This document shows positions 41,978 through 54,361 of a DNA stretch of 64,000 bases, piece after piece; position 1 is the stretch's first letter; each line of letters starts with the position of its first letter. The stretch is from Salarchaeum sp. JOR-1. GTDB taxonomy: Archaea > Halobacteriota > Halobacteria > Halobacteriales > Halobacteriaceae. The notes under the pieces were generated by a model. That model was not told where the DNA came from, did no database searches, and saw nothing but the letters and a program-made list of their open reading frames with translations. The translations under genes and the position numbers were made by a program. The stretch covers positions 1,612,001 through 1,676,000 of the forward strand of contig NZ_CP042241.1 in assembly GCF_007833275.1 (NCBI RefSeq), read 5' to 3'.

Positions 41978-42052
41978 GCTCTGTTGGTGTAGTCCGGCCA
42001 ATCATCTTGCCCTCTCACGGCAAGGACCAGGGTTCAAATCCCTGACGGAGCA
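41978..42052 (+). tRNA. tRNA-Glu (anticodon CUC)
   Basis: A 75-nt cloverleaf. The acceptor stem GCTCTGT pairs with ACGGAGC (one G-U), with discriminator A at 42052. The anticodon stem TTGCC/GGCAA encloses the loop C-T-CTC-A-C, so the anticodon is CUC (Glu). The T arm is CAGGG-TTCAAAT-CCCTG. No intron. No CCA is encoded. It is followed after 56 bp by an integrase module, so its 3' part is probably the attachment site. Confidence 0.95.
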
Positions 42053-42073
42053 CTTTCACCCCGCTCCTTTCCT

Positions 42074-42265
42074 GCGATTTCACTACTCGTGACGTGGAAA
42101 ATTAATCCATGTCCAACGGCAAGCACGTCTCCGATCCGCGAATCGCCCCCGCGCCATCTGGCGATTTCACGAGAACTACCGTTGCCATTTCGGCAAGCGG
42201 AAACACCGACCTGATTCCGACGCCTTCGGGCGAATTCACGAACTTCAATGCCCCCAGCGGCAAGC
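42074..42265 (+). repeat. Two interleaved sets of short direct repeats before the integrase
   Basis: GCGATTTCAC occurs at 42074 and 42161, and as GCGAATTCAC at 42230. CGGCAAGC occurs at 42117, 42191 and 42258. The two alternate, so the stretch reads as three degenerate units of about 90, 70 and 50 bp. They sit between the tRNA and the integrase start, where arm-type sites for integrase or excisionase are found in other systems. They also fall partly in a small ORF. Confidence 0.6.
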
Positions 42266-42291
42266 AACGGGGTGTGGAGGACGACCGATGA
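42109..42291 (+). CDS. Small repeat-bearing protein ahead of integrase
   Basis: A 60-residue frame starting MSNGKHVSDPRIAP. It contains repeats PSGDFTRT, PSGEFTNF and PSGKQ, spaced about 24 residues. Its TGA overlaps the integrase ATG (ATGA at 42288), so it could be the first gene of the integrase operon, for instance an excisionase or regulator. But it lacks HTH features, and the repeats could be DNA sites instead. No family known. Confidence 0.45.
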   Translation: MSNGKHVSDPRIAPAPSGDFTRTTVAISASGNTDLIPTPSGEFTNFNAPSGKQRGVEDDR

Positions 42292-43394
42292 GCGACCTCG
42301 ACGACATCTCGGTCGTCACTGAACCGTCCGCCGAGTACCTCAACAAACGACAGCGCGTTGACTATCGTAACCAGCGCGAGGACTGCCTCGAGTGGCTCCT
42401 CCACTTCGGGAAGAACCCCGACAAAGCCGAGGGCTACGCGTTCACGACGGTCAAGTGTCGTTCCCACCGCATGGACCAGTTCTACCGGTGGGTCTGGGAG
42501 CAAGAAAACGGGTACACCGGCACGCCCACCCGGGACCACGCAGACGCGTATATGCGCCACCTCGCCAAGCAGGACAAGTCCAACGCGCACAAGTCCAACT
42601 CCCGGAAGGCAGTGATGATGCTGTTCAAGTGGCGCCACCACGAGCACGGAACGGACCCCTGGGATCCCGAGTTACAGTTCTCCACGAACGGCGGCACGAC
42701 CAACCCTCGGGACTACCTGACGCTCGAAGAGCGCTCCGCCATCCGCGAGGCCGCGCTCGAGTACGGGAGTCTCCCCGGCTACACGGTCGTCAGTGGCGCC
42801 GAACGCGACAAGTGGCTGGCGTACCTCGCCCAGCGCCTCGAGAAACCCAAGGAAGACATCACCAGAGAAGACTGGGAACAGGCCAACGGCTGGGAAATCC
42901 CGAGCCTCGTCTGGGCGAGCCTCGACGCCGGCCTCCGCCCCATCGAGGTGCAACGCGCAACCACGAACTGGGTCGATATCGACAACGCCGTTCTCCGGAT
43001 TCCGAAAGAGGAGTCCTCGAAGAACACCGACAACTGGATCGTCGGCCTCCAGGACCGGACTGCGGACGTCCTCGACCGGTGGCTCGACCACCGCGACGTC
43101 TGTGACCGCTACGAGGACACGGACAAGCTCTGGCTGACCCAACGCGGCAACGAACACACCTCGCACTCGCTCAAGTACCTCGTGAACAAGCTCTGTGAGA
43201 TCGCGGGCATCGACACCGGCGACCGAAGTATGACCTGGTACTCGATCCGCCACTCCACCGGCACGTACATGACCCGCGAAGAGGACCTCGCCGCCGCACA
43301 GGCGCAGCTCCGTCACAAGAGCCCCGAGACGACGATGAAGTACGACCAGACGCCCGTCGAAGACCGCCGAAACGCGCTGAACCGAATGGAGTAG
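42288..43394 (+). CDS. Tyrosine-type integrase adjoining tRNA-Glu
   Basis: A 368-residue site-specific recombinase. The SAM-like core-binding domain covers residues 20-130 (YRNQREDCLEWLLHFGKNP to KAVMMLFKWRHHEHG). The catalytic domain has Arg I in DAGLRPIEVQRATTNW, WYSIRHSTGTYM with Arg II (the usual first His of HxxR is Tyr), the late His in LRHKSPETTMKY and the Tyr nucleophile after it. Directly downstream of a tRNA gene and on the same strand, it is the likely agent of integration at tRNA-Glu. It is a paralogue of the next gene. Confidence 0.88.
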   Translation: MSDLDDISVVTEPSAEYLNKRQRVDYRNQREDCLEWLLHFGKNPDKAEGYAFTTVKCRSHRMDQFYRWVWEQENGYTGTPTRDHADAYMRHLAKQDKSNAHKSNSRKAVMMLFKWRHHEHGTDPWDPELQFSTNGGTTNPRDYLTLEERSAIREAALEYGSLPGYTVVSGAERDKWLAYLAQRLEKPKEDITREDWEQANGWEIPSLVWASLDAGLRPIEVQRATTNWVDIDNAVLRIPKEESSKNTDNWIVGLQDRTADVLDRWLDHRDVCDRYEDTDKLWLTQRGNEHTSHSLKYLVNKLCEIAGIDTGDRSMTWYSIRHSTGTYMTREEDLAAAQAQLRHKSPETTMKYDQTPVEDRRNALNRME

Positions 43395-43411
43395 CCTGCC
43401 TCCCAGCGCCT

Positions 43412-44677
43412 TCACTCCGCGATCGACCCTGTGTCGCCGTTCAACTCTCTAACCAACTCCAACAGCACGCTCACGTTCCCACTCAGGATCTGGCCAACCT
43501 CACTCTCACTGAGTTCGCCGCTAGCGCGTGCCGCTCCGAGTTCTCGAACGCCACTCACCGACGTCCGCTGCACCTCGCGGACGATCTCGGAGTAGTGATC
43601 GTCCGTCGTGTCGAGATCCCTGTGCCGGAGAACGTCACCCGCCATTTCGAGGCTGTCGTACTCCTTGAGGTACGTTCCTGCCGTCCGCCGGACGCTGTAC
43701 CACGTGATATTGCGGCCGTCCCTATCGATCCCGGCCTCGTCGCATAGCTTCTCCAGGAGGGCGTTCAGTGTTTTCGAGGTGTACCGATTCCCGCGCTCGT
43801 TCAACCAGAGGGCGTCAGTGTCGTCGTACTTCTCGTACTGTTCGCGCTCGTCCAGCCACGTCGCCAACTGTTCCTGCGTCGGCGGCGACAACGAGAGCTC
43901 GGTCGATTCGCGCTGCTTGGACGCTTTCTCCTCCGGAATATCCAGGACGCCCCGTTCGAGGTCGAGCCAATCGACGGTGGCCCGATGAATTTCGATCGGC
44001 GGGAGGGCCAGGTCCTGGGCCGTCATCACGAGCGACGGGATCTTGGCGCCGTTCTCTTCGTGCTCCCAGTCCTCGGGACTCACCCGTGATTTCGGCTTGT
44101 GGAATCGCTGAGCCAAGCGAGCATTGATCTCGTCTCGCTGCTCAGGTGTGGCCTCCTCGTAGTCCGGGAGCTCGTTGAGACGTTTCGCCGCCTCCGTTAA
44201 GCGGCCGAACTCCTCGAGGTCGAAAATGTCCGAGCTGTCATACGAGGACTGGCCGAACGTCTCCTGCGGCTCCCACTCCGCCCATTCGTCAGCGTCGAAC
44301 TCCCGTGCCTTCCAAACGGCGTACTTCTGAAGCGTATTTACGAACTTCCGTTTGCTATTCCCGCCGTACGGCTCGCCGCCCTGCGTTCGAAACTCGTCGT
44401 TCTCCAATAGATCGACGAACGCAGATGCCTGGGCAGGGGTAACCAGAGCGGAATCAAGTTCTAACTCCTGCCAGAGCGCACGATGAATCTGATCCAGCCG
44501 CCACACGTAGTTCGCAGCGACGCTGTCCGACAGACCGTTCCCAGCCTCCGGGTTTTTCCCCTCCTCCTGCATCCACTCGTAGAACAGCTGCCAATCAGCT
44601 GCGATGACGACCCAGAGGTCGTTCTCCAGCACGTTTTTCGTTTTCCGGCTGACCGGGTCCGTTGGGTCAAACGCCAT
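43412..44677 (-). CDS. Tyrosine recombinase paralogue lacking catalytic Arg I
   Basis: A 421-residue protein, clearly homologous to the preceding integrase along its length (WEHEENGAKIPSLV against WEQANGWEIPSLV; ITWYSVRRTAGTYL against MTWYSIRHSTGTYM). At the Arg I position it reads DLALPPIEIHRATVDW: the Arg is Pro (CCG codon). Arg II, the late His (VLRHRDLDTTDDHY) and Tyr remain. An extra C-terminal tail of 60 residues follows. The ATG at 44677 is chosen since GGAGGTG stands 6 nt upstream; one at 44692 lies before this box. It is probably not a normal recombinase; it could regulate or be decaying. Confidence 0.82.
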   Translation of the reverse strand: MAFDPTDPVSRKTKNVLENDLWVVIAADWQLFYEWMQEEGKNPEAGNGLSDSVAANYVWRLDQIHRALWQELELDSALVTPAQASAFVDLLENDEFRTQGGEPYGGNSKRKFVNTLQKYAVWKAREFDADEWAEWEPQETFGQSSYDSSDIFDLEEFGRLTEAAKRLNELPDYEEATPEQRDEINARLAQRFHKPKSRVSPEDWEHEENGAKIPSLVMTAQDLALPPIEIHRATVDWLDLERGVLDIPEEKASKQRESTELSLSPPTQEQLATWLDEREQYEKYDDTDALWLNERGNRYTSKTLNALLEKLCDEAGIDRDGRNITWYSVRRTAGTYLKEYDSLEMAGDVLRHRDLDTTDDHYSEIVREVQRTSVSGVRELGAARASGELSESEVGQILSGNVSVLLELVRELNGDTGSIAE

Positions 44678-45205
44678 ATTCCACACCTCCATTGCTGTCT
44701 ACCGGACGTGTGGCGTGGGTGCCGAAGCTTACTGTGATCATCAGCGCCAGTGTATCGATGGCACAGGGATAAGGGTTAGGTCAAGGGGGTGAACCCACTG
44801 GGGGAGAGCTTTTCCGAACCTCTGAACCGAGCGATATCTGTCGAATTCCATTTCCCTGTAACGGTTGGAATCCCACCTACTGAGTTCGTGAAATGAAAGA
44901 CCGGATGGGACCAATCAATCCGGTCGTATGGCCCCGCTGCATACCAAGAAACGCCCCGAGACAAAGTACAGCGTATGTGGATCAGTCTGAGGCAAATCCA
45001 AAACCACATATAAAAGATGAGGGAAGACCGACTTTGCACTCGAAGCGAGACTGAAATAGCGCCTCAAACGTGTCCAGAGCGAACTCGAGGAACTGCGAGC
45101 ATTGAGTCTGTCGATGTAGACGTTTCCAAGTCGTTCGAAGGGTGTGGGCTTGCACATGACTTTTGCAGGTCAACTCTTTTTACACGGGGTTTCAATCAAT
45201 ATTCC
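44678..45205. other. Low-GC intergenic stretch with hairpin
   Basis: A 528-bp region without a convincing gene. A perfect 7-bp inverted repeat GACCGGA/TCCGGTC with a 13-nt loop lies at 44899-44925. Base composition falls clearly below that of the region before. A TATA-like element at 45176-45182 belongs to the next small gene. No tRNA, IS or CRISPR feature seen. Confidence 0.4.
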
Positions 45206-45856: not shown

Positions 45857-48800
45857 TCACGAGGTGTCGATATAGATCAATAACCCATCGTGATCGTATC
45901 CTTCCGTTTGGAGTGGTCGGAGTCGTGATGGAAGCTCTTCCAGTTCGTTCGTGAGGTCGATCGCACGGCGGTCTGGTTTGACACCAAGGAGTTTCCAATC
46001 ACCCCCGTAGAGGGGGTCCTGATCCGCATCATTTTCGAGGCGGACCTTTCGATACACACTGAGCTGATTGCGCGTTAGATGAATCTTGAATCCGGTTTCA
46101 TCCTCCGGGAGACTCTTCACTTCGTAACGCACCGGTTCGAAGCCAGACGCTGTTTCTTTGAGCCCAATCAAATCATATCCAGCGCCATCCCAGGTTCGAG
46201 AAATATGGAGGCCGCGTTCAAGAACCTCGCTGTCCCGAGTCTCTTCCCACTCACGGAGGGCTGTCTGAAGTGTCTCAACGCTTTTCCCGGAACCCGGAAT
46301 CGCAGAAACGAGTGCATCGGAGACCGTCGCAAAGTCGCCGTTCTCAGCCGCCTGATCGAGATACCTCGCGGTTCTCTCGGTAATCCACGATAGAGCGGCC
46401 TGCTCGGCTTCATCGCCAACTGCCTTGGTTTGCTCCCATTCAGCTTCCAAATCTTCCAACTCAACGATGCCGCTCCCTGTTTCATTCGGGCTTGACTGTT
46501 CTACCTCGGGCCTCGCCAACCCGACCTCATCGGACGTAACGACCTCTTCGACGGGGTCATACCGCGGAGAGAACTCCCGCAACTTTGTCTCAAGCTCATC
46601 TGCGTCCGGGATTTCAGCGCTTGGGATGGACGCCCCAAACGGGTCGCGGCGGAGCCATTCTATCACGGCTACTTTGGGGTCGAAGACGACCCGTTGACAC
46701 GCCGTTTCGCGGACATACTTGTCAAGGTGATTCGCTATCTCGGATTCAGAGATGGCAAGCCCTGTGTGTGCCTCGATGAGGTGCTGGAGATAGGCACATA
46801 GTCGATTCTCCCATGACGAATACCAACCCTCCCAGTCCGCTCGATGATGTTCGACACACGAGAAGTGAGGGCGGAACGGTTCTTGCTCGTCTGTGAGTTC
46901 CAGCCCACGAAGCGTTTCTTCGACATCCTGGTGCGTTACGTCTCCCGGAGCGCTACTCATAGCGATGTCTTCAGGACCAATATGTGAGAGTCGCGTCCAC
47001 GAGTCGCGCAGTTCCAGGCCGAGTGCTCCAAGCGCCTCCCGAATTCGGTCCCGTAACGCTGCATATTCGTCGTCGTCAAGCTGTCGAAGATGACGGTCAT
47101 ACGCCTCGACAAGTGACATCGCATCGTGCTTCTCAAGAATCCGTTCCACGCGGTCAGTCCCGCCTGACTCAAACGCGCCAAGAACATGAGCAAATGACGA
47201 TCCAACCCCTCCGCGATTCTCCTCAAGCAGGAGTTCGACTAGAGGCTCTCCGAATTCGTCGAGCGGTGGCGGTCCTTCTTGCCCTTCCGGAGTGTCGAAG
47301 ATTATCGTCGGTGGGGTATCCTGAAGGAACAGTGCGTGGTTGTAATCGCCTTTGAATTGCGGATCCGAACGTCGTGTCTCGTCACCTAACATAGCCTCAA
47401 ACTCAACCCAAGCATCATCGACATGCCTGATGACACGACTCCGCCAACGGTTCGCAGCCTCCGCTGGATCCACATCGACTTGCGTCGTGGTTTCTGCTAA
47501 CGCGAGCAGATGTGGAACAACTTCCTCGATTTTCGCGTCGAGTGTCTCGACGGCAATCCCATCCTGACTGCCCTGGTGAATAGGATGGACGTGACGCGTA
47601 ATCTCGAACGCGAGGTCGTTGAGTGGGGCATACCCCGTGAGAGTATCCCGCCCGATAATAGCCGTGACAAGGGGAACATCGGGGAAGAACCGACGCATGC
47701 GTTCCCGCTCGACAGTATCAGTGGGGATCCAGACACCGTCACTGTCGGTCCACTTGAGAGGCCTATCAGAGAGTGCTCGCTTGTCTGGAACTCCTTGATA
47801 GACGAGGAGAGGGATATCTAGTTCTTCCTCTTCGGATTCGTGCTCGCGCGCGATCGTGTTGAGCAATCGATCAACAAGCTGCCGGAGTGCCTGCCGTGCC
47901 CTCGGCGTTTCCTCGATGACAGAGAGCATCGGGGCAGTCAATTCGTGCAGTTGTTCAAGCAATCTGAAAGCCGGCTCAGCATTATTCTTGCTCAAACTAT
48001 CCATATCGGTGCCCGGGACGGCACCGAGGGCCGTCAGCAACTCTGACTCGATCGGCGCTTCTTTTGAGAGACTCCACAGCACGGGCGGGAGTTGTCGCTG
48101 CTGTCCCGATACTAACGTCACCTTTGCGGGCGGAATCTGTGTCGGTGGGTCCTCTATAATTACGGGCGGTTCAGCAACCACATCGCCTTCCGAGTCGGTT
48201 CCCCCAACTGGGAACCAGGCATTGTCCCGTAGTTGCGGAATTAACTCCAGTGGACGACGGCCACCGCCTTCGGACGTCTCCATTTCTAGGCGTTCCGCTG
48301 TGATGAGTTCCTCCAACCACTCCCACGCGGCGTCGAGTGACTGTACCCACGCGGTTGGTTCCTCGTCATCGTCCTGTCGCGGTTCCTCTCCGAACTGAAG
48401 AGGGCTCCACTGTGAGCCAGCCGTACTCAACGCCGGCGGCGTCTCCGTCACAATCCCATTGTCGCCCCCTTCGACCAGAGTTAACGGGACCCCGTCTTCC
48501 GGTGGAGCCGGCGTTACGCCGAGAAACAGCAGAAAGTCATCGAGATCAACGTCAGCCGGCGGTGACGGTAATCGATTCGTCGCCACACGATCCAGCGTCA
48601 ACTGCCGGGCGGGTTCCCACTTGCCAGCTGTCGTGGGGAGAAATAGCGTAGCAATAGACCGACCGGCTGTCCGTGCATTCTCACTATATACGTGATTCCG
48701 CAACGCGCGCCATCCTGGACCGTACTCATCAGACTCTGCGGGTGAAACAGTCCCTCCTTGAGAGTCCAGCGCGTACAAATTCATAGCAAACTGAATCAAG

Positions 48801-50800
48801 TCAGACTGCAATTCAGCCGCCTCTTCAGTATCCTCAGCGAGAGGTGAGTATGTCCACGTGTCGAGGTCGTGGGGAAGCTGCCGGAGTTCACGAAGTACTT
48901 CCCAGCGATTGAATTGGCTCGCGCCGAGCGGCTGCGGTGACTCCTCGCTTCTGAATCCGGGCGGGAAATCAAATGAGGTCACCGCGCGATTCGCTTCCCG
49001 AAGCGCACGTGGCAACTCGAGATCCGTCTCCTCAGAGCGCCGTAGAAATAGCCGACGGGTGTGGCGTTCTCCACGCCCGACCGTCGCATCAGCCTCGGAG
49101 CGCTCCGGTAACGGGACTGCCGGCACGTCCTCATCAGGCGGCAGTTCTTTCTGCGCGGTGACAGGAGCGACGCGTCCTCGGTGATCACGGAGTGCATCAC
49201 CCATCGCGGCCGCTGTTGTCCGCCATGTCTTCGTACTGCTAGAGTACTTACAGGCACGGTCGATCCAACCCTTGGACGCCGTCCAAAAATCGCGGTACGT
49301 CTGAACTGGCCACTGTTCCCTAGCGTCGAAGAATGCCGTTGCCAACACTGACCACTGTTGATACCGTTCGACATCTTGTGAGTTGTCACTCAGGAACAAC
49401 AACGACTCAAGATGGTCAACAATTATCTCACCTGCCTCGGACTGGCTGGTAGCTGGATCCAAGAACTGCCACAGATCGGGCCGGGGCGACGTCGGCGACT
49501 CCTCCCCTGAAGCTGTCTGCACCGCTGTGGGTTCAATCCAATCCCATTCGATCACGTCACTCGATACTCCCACGTCTGCGAGAACCTTGTTTAGGTGAAT
49601 TTCGGCAGCCACCTCAAGCAAGGCTTCATTGTACGCCCCGATCGTCTCATCATCAAGTCGCAGGCTCGTACGATCCGTTCGAAGTTGGAAATCACCCTGC
49701 ACATCAATGCCGAACGGACTGCTGATCAGTGTTGGTAGATATCCGTAAACCCGCGATTGTGACGAACCAGAGGACTCCCCCGCATCAAGGGATGGGTCCG
49801 TTGGCCACGCGACGGCAGCACCGGGTGCTGATAATTCGTGTTCCGCCTCTTTGGCGAGTGCTACCAGCGGCTCCGAGTCTGTTTTCCAGTGGCTGATCGA
49901 CAGCGAGTCTTGTCCGGCCTCGGTGTCGTGTTCTGGCCAGGTTCCTTTGGTGAACGACTGCCACGGCGTCTCAAACTGCACGGACAGGTTCTGTCGATCC
50001 TCGAATAACCCGACGAAATTCAAGTGCCCTTGCTGGATCGCCTCAACCGACTCTCGGAGTTCGTCTATCCGTGGTTCTAAAATCGGAACGACGACGACCG
50101 TATTCAAGCCGTGGAGATCCGCAGGGGTTGGCGGCTGCTCAGCATCAAGCGGCAGCGGAAAGTGGAAGCTCGGGCGGCGGTCCTCCTCACCAACCTGAAC
50201 ATCAATGTTGCCCAAGTATGTTTGATGCCCAGCCCGGACTTCTGGGACCTCCAATCTGGTTGTCCAAGTAGCGCGGTCAAGCGGAGAGTGCATCTCGAGT
50301 CCCCACCATCCCGATCGATGGGCGAACTGGCTCCAGACGCGGACGAAGTCACCGAGCCAGAACACTGACCGGAACCCGATTCCCTTGTTCCCGACGCTCT
50401 CCTCCGGCAGCTTATTCGACGTGTGCAGTGAACACAGCGCGTTGAAATCCGGGCGGCGGTCGTCACTCGTTTCAGGAGGGTTTCCGTAATCGTACTCTGG
50501 ATTGACGCGAATTGGCGTCCCGTCATTCCCGACAACGAGCGCATAGTCCGTCGCTTCCCATGCAACCTCCCTGATTTCCACGGTCACCTTCGAATCTGCG
50601 CGATCCAAGGCATTCTGTAAGAGTTCGAAGAGTACTCGACCCGAATACTGGCGCCGAATAGACTCCTCGTTCTGTAGTTGTTGATATGAGACCTCCCCGC
50701 TCGTATCTTCGTAATTCGAGAAGTGGCGCCGAAACACCGACGCAACATCATCCGAATCCGGTACGAACCCCGCCGAATCCGAATACTCAGAGAGATTCAT
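45857..50800 (-). CDS. Giant sacsin-like GHKL ATPase with NO VEIN-type C-terminal domain
   Basis: A 1647-residue protein. N-terminus: a Hsp90/GHKL ATP-binding fold with VLFELLQNALDRAD (N-box, near residue 60), VVGNDGTPI (DGxG-like box) and VGNKGIGFRSVF (ATP-lid glycine motif, near 137). The middle 1300 residues have no known motif. C-terminus: a DUF3883/NO VEIN-like domain from about residue 1510, with AGYDLIGLKE followed by VRYEVKSLPED, which fits a PD-(D/E)xK nuclease pattern (D...ExK). Large proteins of this design occur in microbial genomes near restriction or defence genes. Base use is lower in GC than the core. Action as an ATP-controlled nuclease is inference. Confidence 0.85.
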   Translation of the reverse strand: MNLSEYSDSAGFVPDSDDVASVFRRHFSNYEDTSGEVSYQQLQNEESIRRQYSGRVLFELLQNALDRADSKVTVEIREVAWEATDYALVVGNDGTPIRVNPEYDYGNPPETSDDRRPDFNALCSLHTSNKLPEESVGNKGIGFRSVFWLGDFVRVWSQFAHRSGWWGLEMHSPLDRATWTTRLEVPEVRAGHQTYLGNIDVQVGEEDRRPSFHFPLPLDAEQPPTPADLHGLNTVVVVPILEPRIDELRESVEAIQQGHLNFVGLFEDRQNLSVQFETPWQSFTKGTWPEHDTEAGQDSLSISHWKTDSEPLVALAKEAEHELSAPGAAVAWPTDPSLDAGESSGSSQSRVYGYLPTLISSPFGIDVQGDFQLRTDRTSLRLDDETIGAYNEALLEVAAEIHLNKVLADVGVSSDVIEWDWIEPTAVQTASGEESPTSPRPDLWQFLDPATSQSEAGEIIVDHLESLLFLSDNSQDVERYQQWSVLATAFFDAREQWPVQTYRDFWTASKGWIDRACKYSSSTKTWRTTAAAMGDALRDHRGRVAPVTAQKELPPDEDVPAVPLPERSEADATVGRGERHTRRLFLRRSEETDLELPRALREANRAVTSFDFPPGFRSEESPQPLGASQFNRWEVLRELRQLPHDLDTWTYSPLAEDTEEAAELQSDLIQFAMNLYALDSQGGTVSPAESDEYGPGWRALRNHVYSENARTAGRSIATLFLPTTAGKWEPARQLTLDRVATNRLPSPPADVDLDDFLLFLGVTPAPPEDGVPLTLVEGGDNGIVTETPPALSTAGSQWSPLQFGEEPRQDDDEEPTAWVQSLDAAWEWLEELITAERLEMETSEGGGRRPLELIPQLRDNAWFPVGGTDSEGDVVAEPPVIIEDPPTQIPPAKVTLVSGQQRQLPPVLWSLSKEAPIESELLTALGAVPGTDMDSLSKNNAEPAFRLLEQLHELTAPMLSVIEETPRARQALRQLVDRLLNTIAREHESEEEELDIPLLVYQGVPDKRALSDRPLKWTDSDGVWIPTDTVERERMRRFFPDVPLVTAIIGRDTLTGYAPLNDLAFEITRHVHPIHQGSQDGIAVETLDAKIEEVVPHLLALAETTTQVDVDPAEAANRWRSRVIRHVDDAWVEFEAMLGDETRRSDPQFKGDYNHALFLQDTPPTIIFDTPEGQEGPPPLDEFGEPLVELLLEENRGGVGSSFAHVLGAFESGGTDRVERILEKHDAMSLVEAYDRHLRQLDDDEYAALRDRIREALGALGLELRDSWTRLSHIGPEDIAMSSAPGDVTHQDVEETLRGLELTDEQEPFRPHFSCVEHHRADWEGWYSSWENRLCAYLQHLIEAHTGLAISESEIANHLDKYVRETACQRVVFDPKVAVIEWLRRDPFGASIPSAEIPDADELETKLREFSPRYDPVEEVVTSDEVGLARPEVEQSSPNETGSGIVELEDLEAEWEQTKAVGDEAEQAALSWITERTARYLDQAAENGDFATVSDALVSAIPGSGKSVETLQTALREWEETRDSEVLERGLHISRTWDGAGYDLIGLKETASGFEPVRYEVKSLPEDETGFKIHLTRNQLSVYRKVRLENDADQDPLYGGDWKLLGVKPDRRAIDLTNELEELPSRLRPLQTEGYDHDGLLIYIDTS

Positions 50801-53698: not shown

Positions 53699-53743
53699 CA
53701 AAGGGGAACAACCGTCTATCGTTTATAAAGGCGGTGCGCCAGG

Positions 53744-54361
53744 ATGAGTGAATACGCAAATTCCCAAGTTCGTGCGAAAGTGTGGGTGACGCCCGACCAA
53801 GTCGAGTCTCTCCGCTCAGCGTGTTACGCGATGGGAGCCGACTACTTGCAGCAACGCAACGAGGCCATCGTTGCGACGATGTACGATACTGGGCTTCGCG
53901 TCGGCGAGCTCGCCCAACTCGATGTGGAACTTCTTCGAAACACCAACTCAGAACTCTACCTCCCGACGGAGATCCAGAAGGACTACCCAAACGAGAACTC
54001 GCCACCACCCGTCACACTCGAGCTTGCGGAAGACACCGCACGGCTGCTGTCGGCCTACCTCACCAACCGCTGGAAAGACACGCCCGCACTCTTCCCCGCT
54101 CGCTCCTCAGACCGCATCTCCGAGCAGGGCATTCGGATCATGCTCCACAAAATCGCGGACGAAGCAGGCATTCGCCCCTACAAGATCGATGGGAGCAGAG
54201 GCACATCCGACGACGTCACGCCGCACGCGCTCCGTCACGGGGTCGCTTATCGGATGATGAACACCGAAGACGGGAACACGCTCTACGATGTCCGCAATCG
54301 ACTTCGTCACCGGAGTATCCAAACCACCGAACGAATCTACGACCACATGCTGAAGGTGTAA
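53744..54361 (+). CDS. Minimal (catalytic-domain-only) tyrosine recombinase
   Basis: A 205-residue recombinase consisting almost only of the catalytic domain. The complete active site is visible: Arg I in DTGLRVGELAQLD, HALRHGVAYRM with His and Arg II, RLRHRSIQTTERIYDHML with the late His and Tyr nucleophile. The core-binding domain is absent, which recalls archaeal XerA-like or phage-type short integrases. TTTATAAA at 53722 is its TATA box, placed directly after an inverted repeat. It may invert, excise or resolve DNA. Confidence 0.85.
   Translation: MSEYANSQVRAKVWVTPDQVESLRSACYAMGADYLQQRNEAIVATMYDTGLRVGELAQLDVELLRNTNSELYLPTEIQKDYPNENSPPPVTLELAEDTARLLSAYLTNRWKDTPALFPARSSDRISEQGIRIMLHKIADEAGIRPYKIDGSRGTSDDVTPHALRHGVAYRMMNTEDGNTLYDVRNRLRHRSIQTTERIYDHMLKV

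Follow-up and report, generated by a model that had tools for sequence, protein, structure and literature searches.

A tyrosine integrase and its paralogue lacking the first catalytic arginine at tRNA-Glu islands of haloarchaea: a candidate two-recombinase module

The analysed stretch of DNA, a window of 64,000 nucleotides from Salarchaeum sp. JOR-1, carries two paralogous tyrosine recombinase genes, A and B, in convergent orientation; the pair adjoins tRNA-Glu(CTC) and marks one end of an island of 89.9 kb. Judged by the sequences compared, a single loss of the first arginine of the catalytic set (Arg I) took place at the base of the B clade, and B appears to have been kept with A since. Our preferred reading, to which we give a probability of about one half, is that B is a dedicated co-recombinase of A in a two-recombinase module that moves large defence islands. 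Arg I is held to be indispensable in most tyrosine recombinases, and the B clade dropped it once and kept the other catalytic residues; standing beside a normal paralogue, it offers a natural test of the role of Arg I, and the pair also lends itself to testing what controls the direction of archaeal integration. Since the pair bounds a BREX/Argonaute island here, and restriction or nuclease genes adjoin several of the others, it also bears on the spread of archaeal immunity.

The gene pair, its tRNA target and the island

Integrase A (42288–43394, plus strand) is a protein of 368 amino acids with the full catalytic set R217, K245, R321, H343 and Y352. Integrase B (43412–44692, minus strand) comprises 426 amino acids when read from its first ATG at 44692, from which its residues are numbered here; it keeps K259, R335, H357 and Y367, and Pro231 (CCG, 44000–44002, minus strand) replaces Arg I. 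Translation of B more likely begins at 44677, since the ATG there is preceded by GGAGGTG and the same start exists in the Halosimplex copy. BLASTP aligned residues 35–349 of A with 39–363 of B (121/327 identities, 37%, E = 1e-63), leaving out the N-terminal 34 residues of A and the tail, and both proteins scored above the cut-off of 27.1 bits for Phage_integrase (PF00589, Pfam), A with 55 and B with 44.5 bits. NCBIfam returned Xer and invertase models far under their cut-offs, and PHROGs gave 'integrase' only. The Arg I motif reads GLRPIEV in A and ALPPIEI in B. The original prediction of two convergent paralogous integrases, one of them without Arg I, is borne out by the ORF positions, the identity and the CCG codon, and the tail of 60 residues that it assigned to B proved to have 59 when counted after the catalytic Tyr, compared with 16 in A.

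The target gene, which is also the left att site, is tRNA-Glu(CTC) at 41978–42053 (plus strand, ARAGORN). On the attL side, a 44-bp direct repeat covers 42011–42054 (plus strand), with identity starting at the anticodon loop, and its second copy lies 89.9 kb downstream (G000:C2:1743927-1743970); because this repeat is exact and present at both ends, the element was taken to be 89.9 kb long. The anticodon stem-loop holds a core, TTGCC-CTCTCAC-GGCAA (42007–42023, plus strand), which is the putative crossover site. The interval between the tRNA and A (42074–42287, plus strand) contains spaced GCGATT...GGCAA repeats, which are probable arm-type binding sites. A 60-aa ORF (42109–42291) spans these repeats and overlaps the start of A. 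A B-specific operator in this interval was considered and rejected, as GCGAT half-sites are also present in A-only elements at tRNA-Glu and so probably belong to A. The GGCAA halves were more numerous in elements with B, which is a lead only. The same tRNA gene adjoins A in 21 of the 24 B loci described below; two of the remaining loci (L057, L122) have a 3′ fragment of the tRNA only, and the third (L113) ends at the contig edge. Elsewhere in the same genome, another A-type integrase is located beside tRNA-Ser (L051, G000:C2:1333000-1345000), and the 12 kb covered there showed no other member of the family.

The GC content is 0.575 in the window's part of the island, compared with 0.673 before the island. 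The cargo includes BrxL, PglZ, PglX and BrxC (BREX), Argonaute and a TmtA-like protein. The latter (45860–50800, PADLOC) has 1647 amino acids and gave no Pfam match at E 0.001. The rest of the island (L143–L146, G000:C2:1676001-1750000) holds BREX genes, Argonaute adjoining a PLD-domain protein, and UvrD/PDDEXK genes. Within the island there is also a 210-aa ORF (53729–54358) in which the Phage_integrase domain is almost whole and very little N-terminal sequence precedes it. Fourteen other genomes were searched for the tRNA end, and in seven of them a second same-strand copy was found on the contig, giving putative spans of 17.6 to 139 kb in six and of 288 kb in one. Ten large proteins encoded beside B elsewhere consisted of two Eco57I-type methylases, one Mrr, one UvrD-PDDEXK, two PLD-type proteins that scored no higher than the cut-off, two transposases and two proteins that gave no match.

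A clade without Arg I and its pairing with A

Relatives were collected with the window's B protein (146 relatives), with a B alignment across 392 genomes of the order, and from a named genome collection, giving loci L033–L072 and L103–L139. Once repeated places are merged, the B loci number 24: the window, eight named records (Halosimplex aquaticum, Salinibaculum sp. KK48, Haloquadratum J07HQX50 and LUM.47, Halorubrum vacuolatum, two strains of Natrinema hispanicum and a Pacearchaeota-labelled contig) and 15 further genomes (seven repeat named-collection records). The 17 loci of the named collection comprised 15 with B and two with another integrase (L111, L119). In a 392-genome sample of the phylum, the only genomes with matches of B strength (E < 1e-150) were three of the window's order that had been found before. 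The contig labelled Candidatus Pacearchaeota (L115) carries an A–B pair that groups with the Natrinema copies, and is probably haloarchaeal contamination. The B gene is intact at 21 of the 24 loci (20 non-redundant) and broken at L069, L121 (= L110) and L118.

In a quickly built tree of 101 family members, supported by SH-aLRT and without bootstrap, B formed a single group (21/21 rows, SH-aLRT 95), and the loss of Arg I required one change (80 Arg and 21 non-Arg rows), Arg being present in 80/80 non-B rows. Arg I was likewise present in 59/59 proteins of the A set. All 22 readable B proteins have another residue at this place: among the 20 intact non-redundant ones Ile occurs in seven, Ala in six, Thr in four, Pro in two and Leu in one, and the two readable broken ones have Leu and Ile. 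What stood from the suggestion that the Pro form may define a conserved clade is the absence of Arg, which is conserved clade-wide; Pro itself occurs only in the window's B and in the Halosimplex copy, which is 97% identical to it. The Pro-x-Glu that follows the Arg I place was kept in all 20 intact non-redundant B proteins, as were Lys259, Arg335, His357 and Tyr367. The H-to-Y spacing is 9 in A, and in B it is 10 in 18/20 and 9 in two (L114, L127). A His-containing C-terminal peptide is common to 18/20 B proteins, but not to the window and Halosimplex copies, whose tail is shorter.

A further residue, Arg261 (43910–43912, minus strand), situated at position +2 from Lys259, is unvarying across the B clade. 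Arg at this place was found in 22/22 B proteins and in 0/21 of the A proteins partnered with B, but also in 13/39 other A proteins and 7/24 of the remaining rows, which indicates that it is allowed in relatives with Arg I and fixed in proteins that have lost it. In the AlphaFold models the loop with Lys and Arg had high confidence for B, with block means of 87 and 85, and low confidence for A, with 57; this comparison is weak because the two models were made from different alignments.

A convergent A-type integrase was present at 24/24 B loci, a frequency that is not a population estimate, since the loci were partly picked for their paired look and many of the stretches reach just 3 to 14 kb past A. 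The distance between the two genes is at most 100 bp in 22 loci, 1.0 kb in one (L122) and 1.7 kb in another (L055), and A is itself broken in two (L057, L117). The A proteins partnered with B require one change on the tree. The distances among A and among B proteins were correlated (Mantel r = 0.63, permutation p = 0.0001 for 19 pairs; r = 0.38, p = 0.0007 for 14 pruned pairs), a result that linkage by itself would also produce. At 14 A loci beside tRNA-Glu(CTC) the stretches examined contained no other family member, which indicates, as far as these stretches reach, that A can occur alone. At A-type loci of other tRNAs, B was found in 0/46 within the stretches examined.

The dN/dS values of six close B pairs were 0.12, 0.13, 0.15, 0.18, 0.27 and 0.33, and that of the window and the distant L053 was 0.50, some ORFs having been taken from stop to stop so that a few upstream codons are included. 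In the four pairs compared for both genes, A gave 0.02, 0.03, 0.06 and 0.11, and B 0.12, 0.13, 0.18 and 0.27. As these values are purifying and higher for B, the gene is kept, but less strictly than A. Over the tRNA, A and B (41978–44782), the DNA of the window matches that of Halosimplex aquaticum at 96.3% identity (dN/dS 0.02 for A and 0.12 for B), and elsewhere in the 13-kb Halosimplex locus only three short matches to the window occur (132, 125 and 32 columns; 81, 78 and 91%). Since the identity is otherwise confined to these three genes, the module sits in different cargo in the two genomes. A Pro change limited to one genome and accompanied by other signs of decay, the outcome named in the original prediction as speaking against it, was not what we found: the loss of Arg I extends over the clade, arose by one change on the tree and concerns a gene under purifying selection. 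As the same pair recurs in many related archaea, B looks like a retained working partner of A rather than a dead copy.

Possible roles of B

According to the reading we prefer, A and B would move large defence islands into and out of the anticodon stem-loop of tRNA-Glu(CTC), with A acting as a canonical tyrosine integrase and B as its paralogous dedicated partner. B most likely joins the synaptic complex of A at the att sites in a mixed A/B tetramer, and may be needed for one direction or for one strand exchange, as GinC is in the bacterial GInts. It may still cleave DNA, in which case Lys-x-Arg would supply the missing positive charge in the manner of the displaced arginine of IntDOT, although that arginine reportedly sits at another position than Lys+2 of B. 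Two paralogous tyrosine recombinases also work in one complex in XerC/XerD, as proposed here for A and B, but both of these have Arg I and both are chromosomal. A partner role of B is well supported by the clade-wide loss of Arg I, the purifying selection and the A gene adjoining it in 24/24 loci, and a co-recombinase was ranked before a regulator because Arg I is the only one of the catalytic residues of A that was lost and because B is tied to one integrase.

Judged by the published descriptions, GinC is the closest precedent for B. It is reported to be without the first Arg of RHRHY, and each of ginA–D is described as essential for both excision and integration of the GInt islands (PMC5385486). 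The GInts of Pseudomonas and other bacteria resemble the A/B island in having several recombinases at one island end, one of them without the first Arg, and in their variable cargo, which ranges from 2.5 to at least 70 kb; they differ in having an operon of three recombinases and GinD, and are reported to be absent from archaea (PMC5385486). With two convergent recombinase genes at tRNA-Glu, the A/B module falls outside a definition based on a three-recombinase operon. IntDOT, the CTnDOT integrase, is described as having Arg I replaced by another, downstream conserved Arg, and B with its unvarying Arg261 may be comparable in this respect; unlike B, IntDOT serves as the integrase of its own element and binds arm sites through a separate domain (PMC8138268). 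Several observations argue against a co-recombinase: Cre and Flp with Lys at the Arg I place are described as practically inactive in recombination, although Flp R191K still cleaves (PMC4499138), the H-to-Y spacing is 10 in 18/20 B proteins, three of the 24 B genes are broken, constraint is weaker than on A, some relatives that have Arg I also carry the Arg at Lys+2, and at 14 tRNA-Glu(CTC) loci only A was seen in the stretches examined.

The original prediction had gone further than partnership and proposed that B modulates A as a recombinase-derived regulator. A protein of this kind would bind core or arm sites uncut and repress A or its own promoter, in the manner of MrpR with its SPbeta prophage, or set the direction of A; we consider this somewhat unlikely, though it is the strongest competitor. 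It would agree with the loss of Arg I across the whole clade, and repressors with a tyrosine-recombinase fold are known, namely MrpR/YopR of SPbeta and SroF of phi3T (PDB 8a0a, 9rgl, 9rd5). MrpR, in which Arg I is replaced and Lys and Tyr are kept as in B, is described as acting only as a repressor, without recombination (PMC10516654), so the residues kept in B do not prove catalysis. MrpR retains only three of seven catalytic residues, however, and it also differs from B in having no paralogous integrase partner, SPbeta being excised by a serine recombinase (PMC10516654). B lost Arg I only: Tyr, Lys, Arg II and His III are present in 20/20 intact proteins, which together with the unvarying Arg at Lys+2 and the precedent of GinC (PMC5385486) makes the regulatory part of the prediction less likely.

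The predicted structure of B (mean pLDDT 84) matched true recombinases best: XerA (Z 22.0, rmsd 16.1, 265 aligned), XerH (Z 19.0, rmsd 4.6, 299 aligned), the integron integrase (Z 17.6, rmsd 5.3, 277 aligned), the Tn1549 integrase (Z 17.4, rmsd 5.3, 288 aligned) and Cre (Z 17.2, rmsd 4.1, 283 aligned). The repressors were among the matches as well, but scored lower, SroF with Z 13.4 (rmsd 3.2, 166 aligned) and 13.3 (rmsd 7.0, 267 aligned) and YopR/MrpR with Z 11.2–11.3 (rmsd 18, 259 aligned). As far as the model goes, a fold shared with both recombinases and repressors leaves the function of B undecided. A sequence search of solved structures yielded seven sequences, one of them labelled RaiA and the others related to Xer, integron and integrase proteins.

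An operator for B could be sought in second copies of the tRNA core. The exact 17-bp core was found in inverted orientation upstream of B in 3/24 loci (L055:4662-4678, L058:3497-3513, L059:4551-4567), and weaker copies occur at L127, with two mismatches to the core of its own tRNA and the same variant spacer, and at L057, with three mismatches. A copy with five mismatches at L069 lies at the place matching that of its close relative L057, but means little alone, since five-mismatch hits also occur elsewhere (L121, L125). In shuffle controls, matches with at most three mismatches occurred in 0/200 stretches and with at most four in 4.5%, and one shuffle of 23 loci gave no core match with at most three mismatches in 269,659 bases. 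In a comparison set of 22 loci with the core, among them the B locus L069, there was one second exact copy (L047), in direct orientation. The second cores beside B could be operators or secondary recombination sites. In 18/24 B loci, including the window, no convincing core-like site was present in the upstream stretch examined, and as they are absent at most loci, these sites were left out of the proposed mechanism.

A further-reaching form of the preferred reading is rather improbable as a whole: in an obligate mixed A/B recombinase at tRNA-Glu, B would work without Arg I by a Lys-x-Arg pair, the cuts of the two subunits would differ chemically, and this difference would set the direction of island movement. 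We find it more doubtful still that B is a fully active, independent recombinase acting on a second site or in a second reaction outside the complex of A, with the function of Arg I moved to Lys+2. The distribution of K-x-R between B and its partner A proteins, the confidently modelled loop of B and the inverted second cores of some elements would suit such an enzyme, but its strict link with A would be needless, the loop comparison draws on two different alignments, and the displaced arginine of IntDOT is said to lie elsewhere.

Sharing of active sites is very unlikely. The Tyr of B would then act in trans, in the pocket of A that has the full set of arginines, as the Tyr of Flp does and as was proposed for the SSV1 integrase. 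A study cited in PMC8371274 reports cleavage in trans by an archaeal integrase, and the Tyr of B, its longer spacing and the tail are conserved in the B clade; the spacing is longer by one residue only, however, and Lys, Arg II and His III are also kept in the pocket of B. Least probable of all, and rejected on the purifying dN/dS values, is a decaying duplicate without function, for which the broken B copies and the weaker constraint could be cited, but four catalytic residues are conserved throughout the clade, the pairing is complete, and A is occasionally broken too.

Relatives outside the B clade

Membership in the HSTV2-like integrase family of haloarchaea (PMC8371274), for which a protein must share 30% identity or more with the named member across 60% or more of its length, was tested pairwise and without SiLiX clustering. 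The integrase of a record taken as HSTV-2 (L147) is 49.6% identical to A over 361 residues, which places A in the family, and 30.9% identical to B over 330 aligned positions of 426, which makes B a borderline member. This integrase differs from B in having Arg I, and no second family member was present in the 17 kb of the record examined. In IMG/VR, a scan with the window's protein confirmed no relative, and one with the B alignment yielded a single record, presumed to be HSTV-2. The B protein of L120 matched four plasmid records (the best-ranked at 35.9% identity; 41.3% over 46% of the query) and 49 phage records, the best-ranked of the best 20 having 33.0% identity; no relative of 60% identity was among the four plasmid and the best 20 of 49 phage records. 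Among the matches listed for archaeal, paired or inactive recombinases, the titles and abstract openings, which included few subscription papers, held no description of an A/B pair.

A second clade of partner recombinases was seen near A in 12 cases, some assigned by best BLAST hit only, and nine of these are convergent with A (examples are L071:6783-7919, L072:7889-9118, L045:6689-7951, L162, L167 and L168). All 12 have Arg I, and nine of the 12 carry Gln in place of His III.
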